Origin: Candidatus Schekmanbacteria bacterium
GTDB lineage: Bacteria > SZUA-182
Assembly (NCBI GenBank): GCA_016235675.1
Contig: JACRJN010000003.1
Coordinates: 1 to 41,434 of the forward strand
Length of the DNA stretch: 41,434 nucleotides
Direction of reading: 5' to 3'
This document shows, one piece after another, positions 3,860 through 27,784 of this stretch. Each line of letters starts with the position of its first letter. The stretch's first letter is position 1. A model generated the notes under the pieces. It was given only the letters and a program-made list of their open reading frames with translations. It was not told the DNA's origin and did not search any database. A program made the translations under genes and the position numbers.

Positions 3860-5590
3860 TTGTTTGTGCAAAACAAAATAAAACAAAATGTAATATACGG
3901 GTTTTTAATCGCGTCAATTTTTCTGCTGGGAAATCTGCTTACTATTAAAAAATACGGTATAGACTTCGACGGCGGGATTCACATGTCCCGCGGCGAAAGC
4001 CTGCTACATTTTTATTTAACCGGCGAAAAGGATTATAATAACCTGCCGTTAAAAGAAAGATGTATTTTCCAGAAAACCGACCCGGCTTTTCCCTTTCTTA
4101 GTCCGGAATTTTTTTTTAGCGGTAATTATACGGCCTCTACAACTATAGGCGGTTTATCCTCGGCTGTTACCTGCCGCATATTCCACAAAAAACTGGGTTG
4201 GATGAACGCCGTGGATGCACATAATTTATCTGCACTCATTTACGGCAGTTTGACGATTTTAGTTATTTATCTGTTTGCGTTAGAGGCTTTCGGTACAAGG
4301 ACGGCTCTGTTATCTGCTGTTTTTCTGGCTCTTTATCCGCTGTTTATCGGGTATAGTCATTCCGACATAAAAGACCTGCCGGTGGTTTTTTTTGTTGCAG
4401 CAACAATTTGGACATTTTGGAGGGCGGTGACCGGGAAAAAATATAAATGGCTGTATCCCTCTTTTGTTCTTTTCGGCTTGGCCTTGGTGAGCAAGGAGAC
4501 CGGAGGTTATGGGCCGATTATCCTCTTGGCCTGGCTATTGATTTTAATTTTCCGGGGCATTAAATTTCTGCCGCGGCTTACCCTTAAATTGATAATATCT
4601 ATTATAGCGGCACCGTTGATTTCGATCATTGCCTACGTAGCTTTCGCTCCCCCGATGTGGGATAATAACCCGATAACCATGTGGGCAAATACCTCCCGTA
4701 AAGTAGAGTCGATTGTTACCATGAAATATGTAAACAGCCCGGCCGTTGGAACCAGACCCGAATCAAAACCCTGGCGTCCTCATTATCCGTTAGCCCAAGC
4801 TGTATTAACCGTTCCTTTGCATTTGTTGCTGTTGTCATTATGGGGAGGCATACAAACCATAAGAAGACGCTTAAAAACCGCCGAGCGTGAAAATTGGCTG
4901 GTTTTGATTTGGACGGTTGCTCCGGTTTTGTTTTGTATGCTTCCATTTTTAAAGGTCTATGATGCCATAAGGCAAATTTTACCCTATATTCCCGGGCTGT
5001 GTTTGCTTGCGGGAATAGGCGCTGAAGATTTTATCTCCAGGATAGAGAAGAAAACAGATAAAGCATATGCAGAAAAATTCGGCATGGGGTTTTTTGTCGT
5101 AGTAATATTACTGCAAGCATTTTTGGTTTTTAAATATCATCCGGTTCAGACTGTTTTCTATAACAGCTTAATCGGTGGGTTTAAGGGGGCGATAGGAAAC
5201 CGGATACCCTTTACGCAAAAAGTGGGAGTCCCCGATGCCGGTGATACGCGCGGCAGTTCTCTGCGGGGAGCGATTGAATGGGTTAATGCGTACGGCGAGC
5301 CCGGATCGGGCGTTATCGTATATTGTCTTCAGGCCAATAAATTTTTAGTGGATCGGCAAAAATTGAAATTATTCCCTTTCCGCTGGAACAGAAAAACCGC
5401 GGGTGACCTGGCTTTTCAATCTGTTTATATTATTTTCCCCAACACATACTGGAATCAGCAACATCCGCTTTACGGTTATTGTTATCATAAGTTAAAGCCG
5501 TTGTATTCCGTTCAAATTGACAGTGTCCCGGTTAATTTTGCCTTCCGTATGTCCAGGGAGGAGTTTTTCAAGGTGATTTCACCCCGATAG
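3860..5590 (+). CDS. GT-C membrane glycosyltransferase, GT39/PMT-like, paralogue 1
   Basis: A polytopic membrane protein of 576 residues. The first transmembrane helix (about 11-29) is followed by a periplasmic loop with acidic residues (GIDFDGGIHMSRGE, D35, D37, E46), the position of the catalytic acid in PMT/ArnT-type GT-C enzymes. HSDIKDLP at 167-174 and many hydrophobic helices follow, and there is a soluble C-terminal part. Such enzymes transfer a sugar from a polyprenyl-phosphate donor outside the membrane. The substrate is unknown. The start is TTG 3860 or GTG 3866; neither has a strong ribosome-binding site. The stop is 7 bp from the next gene, a paralogue with the same acidic loop, the IKD(L/I)P motif and a shared FNSLIGG/FNCLIGG-GA-GDT block. 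Confidence 0.85.
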   Translation: MFVQNKIKQNVIYGFLIASIFLLGNLLTIKKYGIDFDGGIHMSRGESLLHFYLTGEKDYNNLPLKERCIFQKTDPAFPFLSPEFFFSGNYTASTTIGGLSSAVTCRIFHKKLGWMNAVDAHNLSALIYGSLTILVIYLFALEAFGTRTALLSAVFLALYPLFIGYSHSDIKDLPVVFFVAATIWTFWRAVTGKKYKWLYPSFVLFGLALVSKETGGYGPIILLAWLLILIFRGIKFLPRLTLKLIISIIAAPLISIIAYVAFAPPMWDNNPITMWANTSRKVESIVTMKYVNSPAVGTRPESKPWRPHYPLAQAVLTVPLHLLLLSLWGGIQTIRRRLKTAERENWLVLIWTVAPVLFCMLPFLKVYDAIRQILPYIPGLCLLAGIGAEDFISRIEKKTDKAYAEKFGMGFFVVVILLQAFLVFKYHPVQTVFYNSLIGGFKGAIGNRIPFTQKVGVPDAGDTRGSSLRGAIEWVNAYGEPGSGVIVYCLQANKFLVDRQKLKLFPFRWNRKTAGDLAFQSVYIIFPNTYWNQQHPLYGYCYHKLKPLYSVQIDSVPVNFAFRMSREEFFKVISPR

Positions 5591-16086: not shown

Positions 16087-18234
16087 TTACAATAACGGCT
16101 GCCCCTCCATCGAATCAGGAACAGTTAGTCCCAAATCCTCCAACACAGTAGGGGCGATGTCGATAATGCGCGGGGTTTTGCCCTTGAGCTTGCGATTGGA
16201 AAATAGGATGCCGGGAACGAATTGGGGATCGACGCAGTGATCGCCGCTCCAGGTTTTCAGGTTATCCTCGAAAATGACAACCGGCGCGCCGCCGATCGCG
16301 GTTTGCCAGGAGGCGCGGTAGCCGGGGCAAAATCCTACCACCAAATCCGGGGCTTGGTCGGCATAGGGGCCGGAATATAGTTCGCCGGATTTATAGACCT
16401 TATTGATTACCGGGCTGGGAAACAGGGGGTCTTGCAGCTTTTGCAGTTTTTTAATAATCCCGGATGACAGGCGATCCGCTTCGGCAACGCTGACAATCCC
16501 CTTGGCTTCCCGGCCTTGACGATTCAGATAGATCGCTCCGAAGCCCAAAGCATAAGCCTGGGTACTCTCCCAGACCACATCGGCGAACAGCGAATTATCC
16601 TCCCGCACTGAAGGACGGGAAGATAGTTGCATATACCCTTGCTCCACCAGCCAGGAGTTTAAGTTTACCGCCCGGTCAAAGGAGGTAAAGCCGTGGTCGG
16701 AGCAAATTAACAGCGTGGTGTCGTGATCCACATGCCTGAGCACTACCCCTAAGAGTTGATCCATTCCCTTATACATATCGCTGATAACGTGTTGGTAACG
16801 TCCCGTTTTGTTGTTCGATGCCCGCCAGAACATGTGCTGGATGCGGTCGCTGGTATCGAAGACCAAGGCCAGCAGTCCGGATTTGAAGCGGCTCAATTCA
16901 TAGATGAGCATCTTTTCCCGCTCCCTTTCGATCTCGGTGCAGCTTTCCAGAAAAGCATCTTCATCCAGGCGCTTTTCATTAAGGGCGTTGGTATCCTCCG
17001 GGATGCCCAAGGTATGATAAAGCCCGACAGCTTCAGCCAGTTCCGCGGCGTATTCCTCCGGCTGCGAGATGAAAAAGGCCGGGCTGAGCGGGTTTACCTG
17101 AAGCGGAGATAGATAAAGTTTCAATTCCGGGGCAACCTCGGCCAGATAAAATTTGCCGATGGCGCTGATCTTTTTCAGCAAACCGGCGCTGAAATTCAAC
17201 TGTACCCATTTGCTCCAGCGTTTTTCCGCCAGCACAATGGTTTGTCCGTCTACGTTTATCTCTAGTTCCCGGCGCTCTTTATTCGGTTTCAGCAGCAGGG
17301 GAAGCGAGGCGTTCTTTTTAAAAATCCCGCCCACCTGCGGCCCAACGATTTCGGTTTTTATCACTGCGTTTTTGTCCGCCGCCACCGTGATAATTTTATA
17401 TTTCCCTGGATCGTCAGGATCGACGACTTCAGTAGTATAAAAAGCATAATGCCCTAAAGTGCCCTTAATATCCGGCACTCCCATTCCGGCCAGGATTTGG
17501 CTTTTGCCTTCCTTGGGGGGAAAGGTAATCGGCCAGCGGATGACCTTGCTGGGTAATCCCGCTTCGGAAACAATCTCCCAAAAGGTTTGGCCGTGCTGTA
17601 CGGGGGAGAACATCTTATTTCCGGATTGTCCCCGGTTAAATTTCAGAATGGCTAGATCAGGCATATAAGTTTGCGGATCGCGGCGGATGAAATCGAAAAG
17701 GCCGTGCTGGCCGGGATTGGCTCCTGTGGCCATGCAAGACCAGGCTACCGGGCTTTGCGCCGGATTGGAGGTTTGAAGATGTGCGTAATCCCCATGCAGG
17801 CGCAGACGGTTGAAATTGGGCAGCGCTCCCTCATCCATCAGGCGTTCCATGATCTTGGGGTCAAGTCCATCCATGCCCAGTACAATAATTTTTTTACCTT
17901 TCTTATCACTCATAAATTTATTTTCTCTTCCTTCCGATAAAAAAAAATAATAGCCTAAAGCGGCGCTAACGGCAATGATTATCAAAACAACTATTTTGGA
18001 TGTTTTGGGGTTTTGTTTAAACAGGCGGCGCAAAAAATTCATAATCGGGCGGAAAAACAAGGCTAAGGTACCGCCCAAAGCGGCCAGAACCGGCCCCAAA
18101 AAGGAGAAGGCGAATCCGGAGGTGCCGGGGTCGATGTAAGCCCAGGCAGATTGGGGGAAGGAGATGAGTATTCCCCATAAAAGGTTTAAAACCGTGAAAC
18201 GGTATGGAATTTTTCTGTTGCATTTCTGTATCAT
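16087..18234 (-). CDS. Membrane-anchored AlkP-superfamily phosphodiesterase with YIDPGT leader
   Basis: At 715 residues, the N-terminus has a signal-like hydrophobic stretch ending PQSAWA, then YIDPGTSG, a hydrophobic segment (AFSFLGPVLAALGGTLALFF), a basic stretch and a second transmembrane helix (IVVLIIIAVSAALGYYFFL). The rest is a type I phosphodiesterase/alkaline-phosphatase fold: VLGMDGLDP (first metal site), NPAQSPVAWSCMATGANPGQ and HGLFDFIRRDP (nucleophile region), VFDTSDRIQHMFW, ICSDHGFTSF and WSGDHC (metal ligands). The substrate is unknown; relatives act on nucleotide, phospholipid or glycan phosphodiesters. YIDPGTG motifs usually occur in small separate membrane proteins, so their fusion to the enzyme is notable. 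The start at 18234 lies in a 76-bp tandem duplication and has no clear ribosome-binding site. Confidence 0.82.
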   Translation of the reverse strand: MIQKCNRKIPYRFTVLNLLWGILISFPQSAWAYIDPGTSGFAFSFLGPVLAALGGTLALFFRPIMNFLRRLFKQNPKTSKIVVLIIIAVSAALGYYFFLSEGRENKFMSDKKGKKIIVLGMDGLDPKIMERLMDEGALPNFNRLRLHGDYAHLQTSNPAQSPVAWSCMATGANPGQHGLFDFIRRDPQTYMPDLAILKFNRGQSGNKMFSPVQHGQTFWEIVSEAGLPSKVIRWPITFPPKEGKSQILAGMGVPDIKGTLGHYAFYTTEVVDPDDPGKYKIITVAADKNAVIKTEIVGPQVGGIFKKNASLPLLLKPNKERRELEINVDGQTIVLAEKRWSKWVQLNFSAGLLKKISAIGKFYLAEVAPELKLYLSPLQVNPLSPAFFISQPEEYAAELAEAVGLYHTLGIPEDTNALNEKRLDEDAFLESCTEIEREREKMLIYELSRFKSGLLALVFDTSDRIQHMFWRASNNKTGRYQHVISDMYKGMDQLLGVVLRHVDHDTTLLICSDHGFTSFDRAVNLNSWLVEQGYMQLSSRPSVREDNSLFADVVWESTQAYALGFGAIYLNRQGREAKGIVSVAEADRLSSGIIKKLQKLQDPLFPSPVINKVYKSGELYSGPYADQAPDLVVGFCPGYRASWQTAIGGAPVVIFEDNLKTWSGDHCVDPQFVPGILFSNRKLKGKTPRIIDIAPTVLEDLGLTVPDSMEGQPLL

Positions 18235-18380
18235 TTTAAAATTTATAACTCATTGTAATAGCGTTACTTATTATTTTCTGTTGCATTTTTCTGCCGCATT
18301 TCTGTATCATTTTAAAATTTATAACTCATTGTAATAGCGTTACTTATTATTTTCTGTTGCATTTTTCTGCCGCATTTCTG
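18221..18380. repeat. 76-bp tandem duplication across a gene junction
   Basis: Bases 18221-18296 and 18297-18372 are identical 76-bp units, followed by eight bases of a third (CATTTCTG, 18373-18380). The unit contains the last codons and stop of the AlbA_2 gene and part of the leader of the downstream phosphodiesterase gene. The gene proper ends in the second unit at 18340; the first unit is therefore an untranslated copy of its 3' end. Confidence 0.95.
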
Positions 18381-26004: not shown

Positions 26005-26163
26005 GTAGCGCAGACCCTTAGGTCTGCTCCGGAGTGCTCATACCAATCCGCTATCAAACATTGAAGAATAATTCGTAGCACGGGGGTTTATCCCCCGTTT
26101 GCAGCGCCTGCTTACGGGAGATGAACTCCCGCGCTACATTAATCTTTGATAGCGAATTGGTAT
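26005..26163. repeat. Half family B, then family I inside an ATACCAATCCGCTATCAAA pair
   Basis: Bases 26005-26040 carry only the left half of family B, preceded by CAATACAGTTCACTTAAC. An 18/19-matching inverted pair (26040-26058 with 26145-26163) then encloses a family I GTAG-REP pair (26075-26137) whose hairpins are CGGGGGTTTATCCCCCG and GGGAGATGAACTCCC. The pair may have removed the missing half of family B when it inserted. GTTTCGGCGTGGGGATACGC followed by CGAAAC (26203-26228) is a further palindrome related to 38303-38373. Confidence 0.82.
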
Positions 26164-26231
26164 CACACCGAAACTGTAAAGTGGTAACGTTCCCCCTTGA
26201 TAGTTTCGGCGTGGGGATACGCCGAAACATC

Positions 26232-26282: not shown

Positions 26283-26840
26283 TCAAACCTTCATAATCTC
26301 CGCTTCTTTATGCTGCTCAACCGTCCCAATCAATTTGGTATAGTTATCGGTTATATGCTGAATCTTCTCATGGGAGCGCCGGTGGTCGTCTTCGGAGATT
26401 TCGCCGTCTTTTTCCATCTGCTTGAGCTTATCCATGGCATCGCGGCGAATGTTGCGCAGGGAGACCTTGGCTTCCTCAGCGTACTTTTTGAGCACTTTGA
26501 CCAATTCCCGGCGGCGTTCCTCGGTCAGCGGAGGAATATTGATGCGGATGGTTTTGCCGTCGTTATTGGGAGTTAATCCGAGGTCGGATTTTAGAATCGC
26601 CTTTTCAATCTCCTTGATTTGGGAGACGTCCCAGGGTTGAATCAGGATCGAACCAGGATCCGGAATCGACAGATTGGCCACTTGATTGATCGGGGTCGGG
26701 GCAGCATAGTATAAAACCTTAATCCCCTCTAACAAGGAAATAGAAGCCCGTCCGGTGCGCAGGCTCCCGTATTCTTTTTTTAAAGCGGCTCCGGTCGCCT
26801 CCATCTTTTTTTCAATCTGGCTGTAGAATTGTTCCAGCAT
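26283..26840 (-). CDS. frr: Ribosome recycling factor
   Basis: RRF splits post-termination ribosomes together with EF-G. This 185-residue protein is full length. It has LRTGRASISLLEGIKVLYYA, then PINQVANLSIPDPGSILIQP, then the IRINIPPLTEERRRELVKVL region and the long C-terminal helix IRRDAMDKLKQMEKDGEISE. The start codon follows TTAGGGGAATAATCAT, which includes an AGGGG ribosome-binding site. That same 38-bp stretch exists a second time at the end of pyrH (27041-27078), separated by an inserted repeat. The ancestral arrangement was probably pyrH stop, 4 bp, frr start. Confidence 0.97.
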   Translation of the reverse strand: MLEQFYSQIEKKMEATGAALKKEYGSLRTGRASISLLEGIKVLYYAAPTPINQVANLSIPDPGSILIQPWDVSQIKEIEKAILKSDLGLTPNNDGKTIRINIPPLTEERRRELVKVLKKYAEEAKVSLRNIRRDAMDKLKQMEKDGEISEDDHRRSHEKIQHITDNYTKLIGTVEQHKEAEIMKV

Positions 26841-27078
26841 ATGATTATTCCCCTAATAACCTGAGTTCGGAATAAGAAAAATCGTAGTCCCAGCCCTTTA
26901 GGGCTGATTTTCATGGCAAAGCCATGCAATAACGACTCACAAGTGGTTAAATCTTCTCAAATTAATTCACACCTTTCGGACTGAACATGCCTTTTATTTC
27001 AGCCTTAGGCTGAAAATGCGTGGCTAAAGCCACGGGACTACTGTAGAATTGTTCCAGCATATGATTATTCCCCTAATA
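26821..27078. repeat. 38-bp direct repeat flanking an inserted family E element
   Basis: Bases 26821-26858 and 27041-27078 are identical over 38 bp and diverge on both sides. The copy includes the frr ribosome-binding site and its first seven codons. The pyrH-side copy gives ATGCTGGAACAATTCTACAG then TAG, a seven-codon decoy MLEQFYS. The 182 bp between them contain a family E element (26884-27041) and, on its left, the CCTGAGTTCGG end seen at 384-399. Confidence 0.95.
26884..27041. repeat. 158-bp family E GTAG-REP pair in the pyrH-frr gap
   Basis: It begins GTAGTCCCAGCCCTTTAGGG and ends GCTAAAGCCACGGGACTAC. A second copy of the same 158-bp length lies at 34219-34376 and shares internal sequence (CATGCAATAACGAC, TGGTTAAA, CTTCTCA). 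The shared core shows a defined element, not a chance palindrome. Confidence 0.9.
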
Positions 27079-27784
27079 CTTTGGAGCCGATATGTTCTCC
27101 GCAGATGATACGCTTTATATTGCCGGCTTTGTGTAAACTGAATACTATAATCGGCATCTTGTTTTCCATGCAAAGAGAAATCGCGGTGGCGTCCATGACT
27201 TTCAACCCCTCCTGCAACACCTGAAGATAATTGATCTGCTCATACTTTTTCGCCTGAGGATTTTTCAGCGGGTCAGCGCTATAAATACCGTCCACCTTGG
27301 TGGCTTTCAGGATCACTTCGGCGTTGACTTCCATCGCCCGCAAAGCCGCGGCGGTATCCGTGGTAAAGTAAGGATTCCCGGTACCGGCAACTAAAATCAC
27401 CACCCGTCCCTTTTCCAGATGCCTGATCGCCCGGCGTCGGATGTACAGTTCCGCCAGACGGGGGATTTCGATTGCCGTCATGACCCTGGTGAAAACGCCC
27501 CGTTTTTCCAGGGCATCCTGCAAGGTCAGACCGTTGATGATGGTAGCCAGCATCCCCATATAATCGGCAGCCGAGCGATCGATGCCGTTGACGCTGGCCG
27601 CCACCCCGCGGTAGATATTGCCGCCGCCGATGACGATGGCTAATTCCACACCCATATCACGGATTTGGACGATCTCCTCCGCCAGATATTTAACCACATC
27701 GGGATCGGTGCCGTAGGTTTGCCGGCCTAATAAAGCCTCGCCGCTTAACTTCAATAAAATGCGTTTATATCGGGGTGTGTCCAT
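27065..27784 (-). CDS. pyrH: UMP kinase
   Basis: PyrH phosphorylates UMP to UDP and is a hexameric amino-acid-kinase-fold enzyme. Of 239 residues, [14 protein letters not shown] opens the fold. [15 protein letters not shown] is the glycine-rich loop, [20 protein letters not shown] the UMP region, [19 protein letters not shown] the phosphate and substrate loop, and [13 protein letters not shown] is typical of PyrH. It follows tsf with a 3-bp gap and was originally almost contiguous with frr. The last codons overlap the 38-bp direct repeat (27041-27078). Confidence 0.97.

Follow-up and report, generated by a model that had tools for sequence, protein, structure and literature searches.

How can a mobile element come to lie between two essential genes that nearly touch, and why should the junction of these genes then be present twice? 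The question is raised by the pyrH–frr locus in the window analyzed here, i.e., the whole 41,434-nucleotide stretch of Candidatus Schekmanbacteria DNA, whose minus strand carries genes in the order rpsB, tsf, pyrH, and frr (Pfam matches also include S2 and EF-Ts). At this locus, the sequence CTGTAGAATTGTTCCAGCATATGATTATTCCCCTAATA is present in two copies with 38/38 identical positions and a start-to-start distance of 220 bp (Table 1); chance is far exceeded by an exact match of 38 nt. The duplicated segment comprises the final 14 nt of pyrH including its stop codon, the Shine-Dalgarno sequence, and the initial 20 nt of frr. The original prediction had held that this segment occurs exactly twice, that the copies flank an inserted repeat, and that the duplication is unusually long. 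All of this was borne out: the identity is complete, the insert is a dispersed repeat whose core has 46 matches in its own 2.98-Mb, 190-contig genome, and the target duplications of the same element family measure 3–4 bp.

The edge bases C 27041 and A 26858 are common to the duplication and the element, so that the element proper is 184 bp long. In a scan of the whole 41-kb window for spaced direct repeats, the pyrH–frr pair was the only one flanking a dispersed repeat. The other two were a REP pair at 38.3 kb and a tandem duplication near 18.2 kb; in the latter (18209–18380), an AT-rich stretch of 96 bp recurs at a 76-bp shift upstream of a gene ending at 18234.

Table 1. Features of the pyrH–frr locus in the window, followed by palindromic inserts with duplications at other loci.
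Feature	Position or locus	Strand	Remarks
frr, ribosome recycling factor, intact	26283..26840	-	Pfam RRF, 6.2e-68
frr-side duplication copy	26821..26858	-	AGGGGAA (ribosome-binding site of frr) and the initial 20 nt of frr with its ATG; non-coding remnant of the pyrH end
Inserted miniature element	26858..27041	+	One terminal inverted repeat and two inverted GTAG-type REPs; second terminal repeat missing
Intact terminal inverted repeat	26858..26875	+	AACCTGAGTTCGGAATAA; directly abuts the duplication, TAAT on the target side
REP 1	26884..26906	+	GTAG head and hairpin CAGCCCTTTAGGGCTG
Decoy ORF	26962..27060	-	32 codons; begins at the duplicated frr ATG
REP 2	27019..27041	-	GTAG head and hairpin CGTGGCTTTAGCCACG; outer foot is the element end and the start of the second duplication copy
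pyrH-side duplication copy	27041..27078	-	Final 14 nt of pyrH including the stop codon, then Shine-Dalgarno and decoy ATG; 20 nt from what was the frr start
pyrH (UMP kinase), intact, ending ...GSKVLGE and stop	27065..27784	-	Pfam AA_kinase, 4.6e-35; pyrH–frr order conserved in class relatives
REP-type insert	L162		26-bp duplication
REP-type insert	L028		About 80 bp, diverged
REP-type insert	L156		About 58 bp, indel
REP-type insert	L172		29–47 bp; without terminal repeats
REP-type insert	L177		29–45 bp; without terminal repeats
REP-type insert	L183		19 bp; without terminal repeats
REP-type insert	L169		At least 22 bp
REP-type insert	L179		14 bp, weak duplication
Insert of another palindrome type	L187		32 bp

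Gene Context and the Decoy Reading Frame

When one duplication copy and the element are taken away, the pyrH stop codon TAA is followed by TCAT and the frr ATG, leaving a 4-nt gap, and the frr ribosome-binding site lies inside the end of pyrH; the distance between the genes is now 224 nt. An empty site of this form would have preceded the insertion. In class relatives, pyrH and frr are adjacent, with a short spacing and no insert in those where the spacing was read. No same-species or sister genome with an empty junction was found in the collections searched, whose nearest genomes are relatives at class level only, and an exact 28-mer had no match among the genome contigs. The most similar PyrH proteins detected are 66–67% identical and belong to Methylomirabilota and Schekmanbacteria bins. 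An Rfam search of the window returned no match.

The pyrH-side copy of the frr start had been predicted to read MLEQFYS and then TAG, yielding a decoy of seven codons. This proved to be a frame error; the in-frame continuation is AGT AGT CCC, and the frame runs for 32 codons, with the translation MLEQFYSSPVALATHFQPKAEIKGMFSPKGVN. It opens 4 nt past the pyrH stop and ends 121 nt ahead of the real frr start. The claim that the insertion changes coupling between the two genes is modified and not confirmed. Judging from the gene layout, both genes stay intact, frr has its own complete ribosome-binding site after the insert, and direct pyrH–frr coupling is likely reduced. The spacer RNA folds more stably than its shuffles (z −3.3), and a search of the coding strand revealed nothing resembling a terminator.

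The Inserted Element and Its Family

Aligned full-length copies of the element measure ~207 bp. Between their terminal repeats, AACCTGAGTTCGG(A/G)ATAA and CGAACTCAGGTT, lie two GTAG-type REPs of opposite orientation, separated by a spacer. These copies run on past CTAC with ATTTTTTATGTCGAACTCAGGTT, whereas the window copy does not: the second 38-bp copy stands directly after the outer foot of REP 2 (GGGACTAC), and the second terminal repeat is lacking. The terminal repeat has ~80 matches genome-wide, compared with 0 for a reversed control, and also bounds inserts with other interiors. Among the 19 full copies with assessable flanks, a by-eye count gave target duplications of 4 bp in nine and of 3 bp in four, with long adjacent duplications in none (0/19). 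The family is MITE-like with a REP pair as its core, being short and non-coding, with AACCTGAGTTCG...CGAACTCAGGTT ends and duplications of 3–4 bp in 13/19 copies. The window copy departs from this description in that one terminal repeat is absent and the duplication measures 38 bp.

The core itself resembles the GTAG-REP, BIME, and REPIN sequences described in earlier reports (Nunvar 2010, PMC2817692; Bertels and Rainey 2011, PMC3116915; Di Nocera 2013, PMC3733652): a GTAG head precedes a GC-rich hairpin, the units form inverted pairs, and hundreds of intergenic copies occur in genomes that encode Y1 transposases. In the window, two units with GTAG head and palindrome form such an inverted pair, and the REPs are dispersed, intergenic, and high in copy number; 460 GTAG hairpins were counted on both strands of 0.81 Mb, as against 5 in a one-strand shuffle. 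The present case differs from these described REPs in that terminal inverted repeats enclose the pair in a transposon-like frame and in that some copies carry target duplications of 14–80 bp.

In the sampled sequence of this genome and its relatives, no transposase was found between matching terminal repeats that could represent an autonomous parent, and phage records contained no match to the element. The ISAs1-type transposase lying at the start of the window was weighed as a candidate mobilizer and rejected, as its IS ends differ (GGTTGCCCTG). The contig opens with the C-terminal end of this transposase, in a broken frame (1–401), and a further MITE-like element with AACCTGAGTTCG ends (243–401) harbors the IS end GGTTGCCCTG in its left terminal repeat. 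A second MITE family, with TACCAATYCGCTATCAAA ends, is represented in the window at about 26040–26165. Many contig ends lie within the AACCTGAGTTCG element family, including those of C14, C28, C36, C49, C82, C157, and C159, among others. In a larger repeat starting ACTCATGTTACGCAAAGTTACTATCC, the terminal repeat always occupies the same position; this repeat, too, looks like a mobile element that was left unassembled.

Recurrence of Long Duplications

If the pyrH–frr duplication belongs to the insertion process, similar duplications might be expected beside other copies, a check suggested with the original prediction. The recurrence survey used a 0.81-Mb sample, equal to 27% of the element's own genome, and such duplications were found, both beside elements of the same kind and at other REP inserts. 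In all, about a dozen further elements with a long and variable duplication were identified in this genome and its relatives (Table 1); the direct repeats around the REP-type inserts are unique sequence apart from the pair itself. Two of them reproduce the layout of the window. At C88 (L113), one terminal repeat is flush with a 23-bp duplication (19/23 identical), and the other end is lost ~8 nt past the REP foot. At C54 (L021), a 24-bp duplication is flush with one terminal repeat, and the opposite end is lost. In these two copies, the missing terminal repeat is lost 0–13 nt from a REP foot. The C88 element also houses a nested TACCAATYCGCTATCAAA-ended copy, whose 3-bp target duplication (TGA) offers a control within the same locus for duplications of the usual short size.

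Flank similarity with a score of at least 18 was observed for 6/149 REP clusters and 5/2980 random intervals (Fisher p 4e-6). When the search was anchored at REP feet, 14/471 feet showed similarity, compared with 0.4% of control positions in intergenic DNA; the controls include some of these same events. About 95% of the REP clusters show no detectable long duplication; thus, long duplications are a minority outcome, or they are often too short or too decayed to be seen. Beyond this genome, two class relatives from other families hold comparable cases beside palindromic inserts, namely diverged duplications of 42 and 45 bp in G005 and duplications with 39/40 and ~31/33 identical positions in G007. 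Long matches at L005 and L009 were discarded as belonging to other repeat families, and one at L176 was discarded as a tandem gene pair.

Origin of the Duplication

We consider it somewhat better than an even chance that the locus arose through an aberrant one-ended insertion of a miniature transposon, with AACCTGAGTTCG ends and two inverted GTAG-REPs, coupled to a 38-bp duplication that was retained by selection. We infer that duplication and insertion were a single event. The intact terminal repeat would have been joined to the target in the normal manner. The other end would have resulted from a break at or close to a REP hairpin foot and would have become linked to the second strand of the target, 37–38 nt away. 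Fill-in of this stagger would have copied 38 bp of the target on both sides. The resulting copy would have survived with a complete end for each essential gene, the former coupling being replaced by the 32-codon decoy and a structured 224-nt spacer. The junctions share 1–3 bases at most, so they were not driven by homology. Ku and reverse transcriptase (RVT_1) both went undetected in the 90%-complete genome, and Ku end joining and reverse-transcription-based (target-primed) insertion were set aside on these grounds. Several observations weigh against one-ended transposition. No empty allele of the junction and, in the sampled sequence, no autonomous element were found, and long duplications go undetected at most REP clusters. 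In addition, the inserts at L183, L172, and L177 carry duplications without having terminal repeats, which is not explicable by a transposase acting on a terminal repeat.

Because it does cover such inserts, template switching during replication is the main rival, although we regard it as rather unlikely. Here, the nascent strand would jump to a REP elsewhere, copy it, and return 38 nt upstream, with no transposase involved. The wide variation in duplication length (14 to about 80 bp), the scarcity of shared bases at the junctions, the position of breakpoints near REP hairpins as potential sites of polymerase stalling, and the lack of detected Ku or reverse transcriptase are all consistent with this route. 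However, the other breakpoint coincides exactly with the end of the terminal repeat in 3/3 truncated copies, a position that random switching would not pick, and the recurring inserts are whole REP units rather than random DNA. Template switching or repair had been put forward in the original prediction and stays a live rival; one-ended insertion with fill-in is preferred as the most economical reading.

An unlikely alternative places the REPs themselves at the center. A RAYT-type HUH transposase would mobilize them, and repair would leave target duplications of variable length, with REP-side joints often starting at C|T. Cutting at C|T is described for the E. coli TnpAREP (PMC8266576), four Y1_Tnp genes are present in the genome, and the duplication boundary nearest the REP begins with CT in 5/10 GTAG-REP events, or in 7/10 if one further base is allowed. 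This pattern was noticed post hoc and is therefore only a lead; one extra weak event lacks it, and the strand carrying the C|T is the one opposite the GTAG head. Moreover, IS200/IS605 enzymes are described as moving without larger target duplications (PMC2817692), whereas the duplication measures 38 bp here and 14–80 bp at other REP inserts. None of the four Y1_Tnp genes (0/4) in the 90%-complete genome is flanked by REPs of the window element's core. The RAYT-like Y1 transposase gene on C67 (L064) has REPs of a different family (GGTAGCACAGGC...) on both sides.

A two-step route, in which a full-length insertion with a 3–4 bp duplication was followed by a rearrangement that swapped one end for the second 38-bp copy, appears very improbable. 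It would account for the intact end at TAAT, a typical target of the family, but two further strand switches would be needed between a REP foot and a duplication start that share no homology, the intermediate would have had a changed pyrH end, and C88 and C54 would need to have reached this outcome as well. An assembly artefact of this short-read metagenome bin is unlikely, and in our estimate scarcely credible. The bin (G000) does consist of 190 contigs, many of them ending inside the element family, and the two 38-bp copies are 100% identical. Yet the conserved adjacency of pyrH and frr makes the join biologically right, and the two novel junctions lack a long mutual overlap for an assembler to exploit. 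Other loci and other assemblies also contain diverged duplications of this type, and because many duplication pairs are diverged, they are not assembly copies.

Comparison with Known Systems

Target duplications are footprints of insertion chemistry, and the mode of REP movement is still treated as an open question in the literature (PMC8266576; PMC3116915). In the four REP papers searched by term, long duplications are not described for REP inserts. The long and variable duplications seen here argue, for at least a minority of events, against a purely duplication-free single-strand route. Any REP-rich species for which many strains have been sequenced could be used to test REP movement by this footprint.

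For variable duplications at small palindromic repeats, the closest precedent is Yersinia YPAL/RU-2, a 168-bp palindromic non-coding mobile repeat with target duplications of 3–26 bp (De Gregorio 2006, as cited in PMC2229807). As summarized in that citing text, YPAL shares with the present inserts a target duplication of variable length at a palindromic repeat, a likeness of mechanism and not one drawn from sequence comparison. The inverted repeats of YPAL are internal, whereas the inserts described here have duplications reaching 38 to ~80 bp and have lost one terminal repeat. New relative to this precedent are the duplication lengths, the REPs, and the rescue of the gene junction. One-ended transposition of IS801 and IS91-type elements (PMC3189936) similarly leaves one end intact and replaces the other with an alternative end; unlike the present copies, which end near a REP foot and duplicate 23–38 bp, those elements are rolling-circle types with a tetranucleotide end and no long duplication. 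Long target duplications, constant at 16–28 bp, are also known from a subgroup of the IS1202 family (PMC10132070). These, however, are 1.5-kb transposase-encoding IS, and full-length copies of the window element family give duplications of 3–4 bp.

Preservation of Tight Gene Junctions

At pyrH–frr, the duplication covers the pyrH stop as well as the frr ribosome-binding site and start, so that both genes retain a full end. An insertion at this position without a duplication would be predicted to alter the PyrH C-terminus or to cut frr off from its binding site. A mobile element can in this way occupy the space between two essential genes that nearly touch, by bringing a spare copy of their junction. 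The duplications at L162, L172, and L187 likewise fall on tight or overlapping gene junctions with both genes preserved. At L162, the upstream stop lies about 2 nt from the next ATG, and at L172, about 5 nt separate stop and ATG; both ends are retained in each case. Nine REP clusters lacking a duplication also occupy junctions where little spacing remains, so that a duplication is not strictly required there.

These cases are read as survivorship, in which duplications are visible at dense sites since other outcomes were lost. A broader and more doubtful proposal, which we put forward as a tentative possibility, is that the GTAG-REPs of this lineage spread by a dedicated mechanism with long variable target duplications, in contrast to the single-strand route without duplications that is commonly assumed for REPs, permitting their entry into gapless or overlapping operon junctions without gene breakage. 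At L187 (about 4664–4798), two co-directional genes that would otherwise overlap by ~11 nt are parted by the palindromic insert with each end intact, and the duplication at L183 retains a -35-like box.
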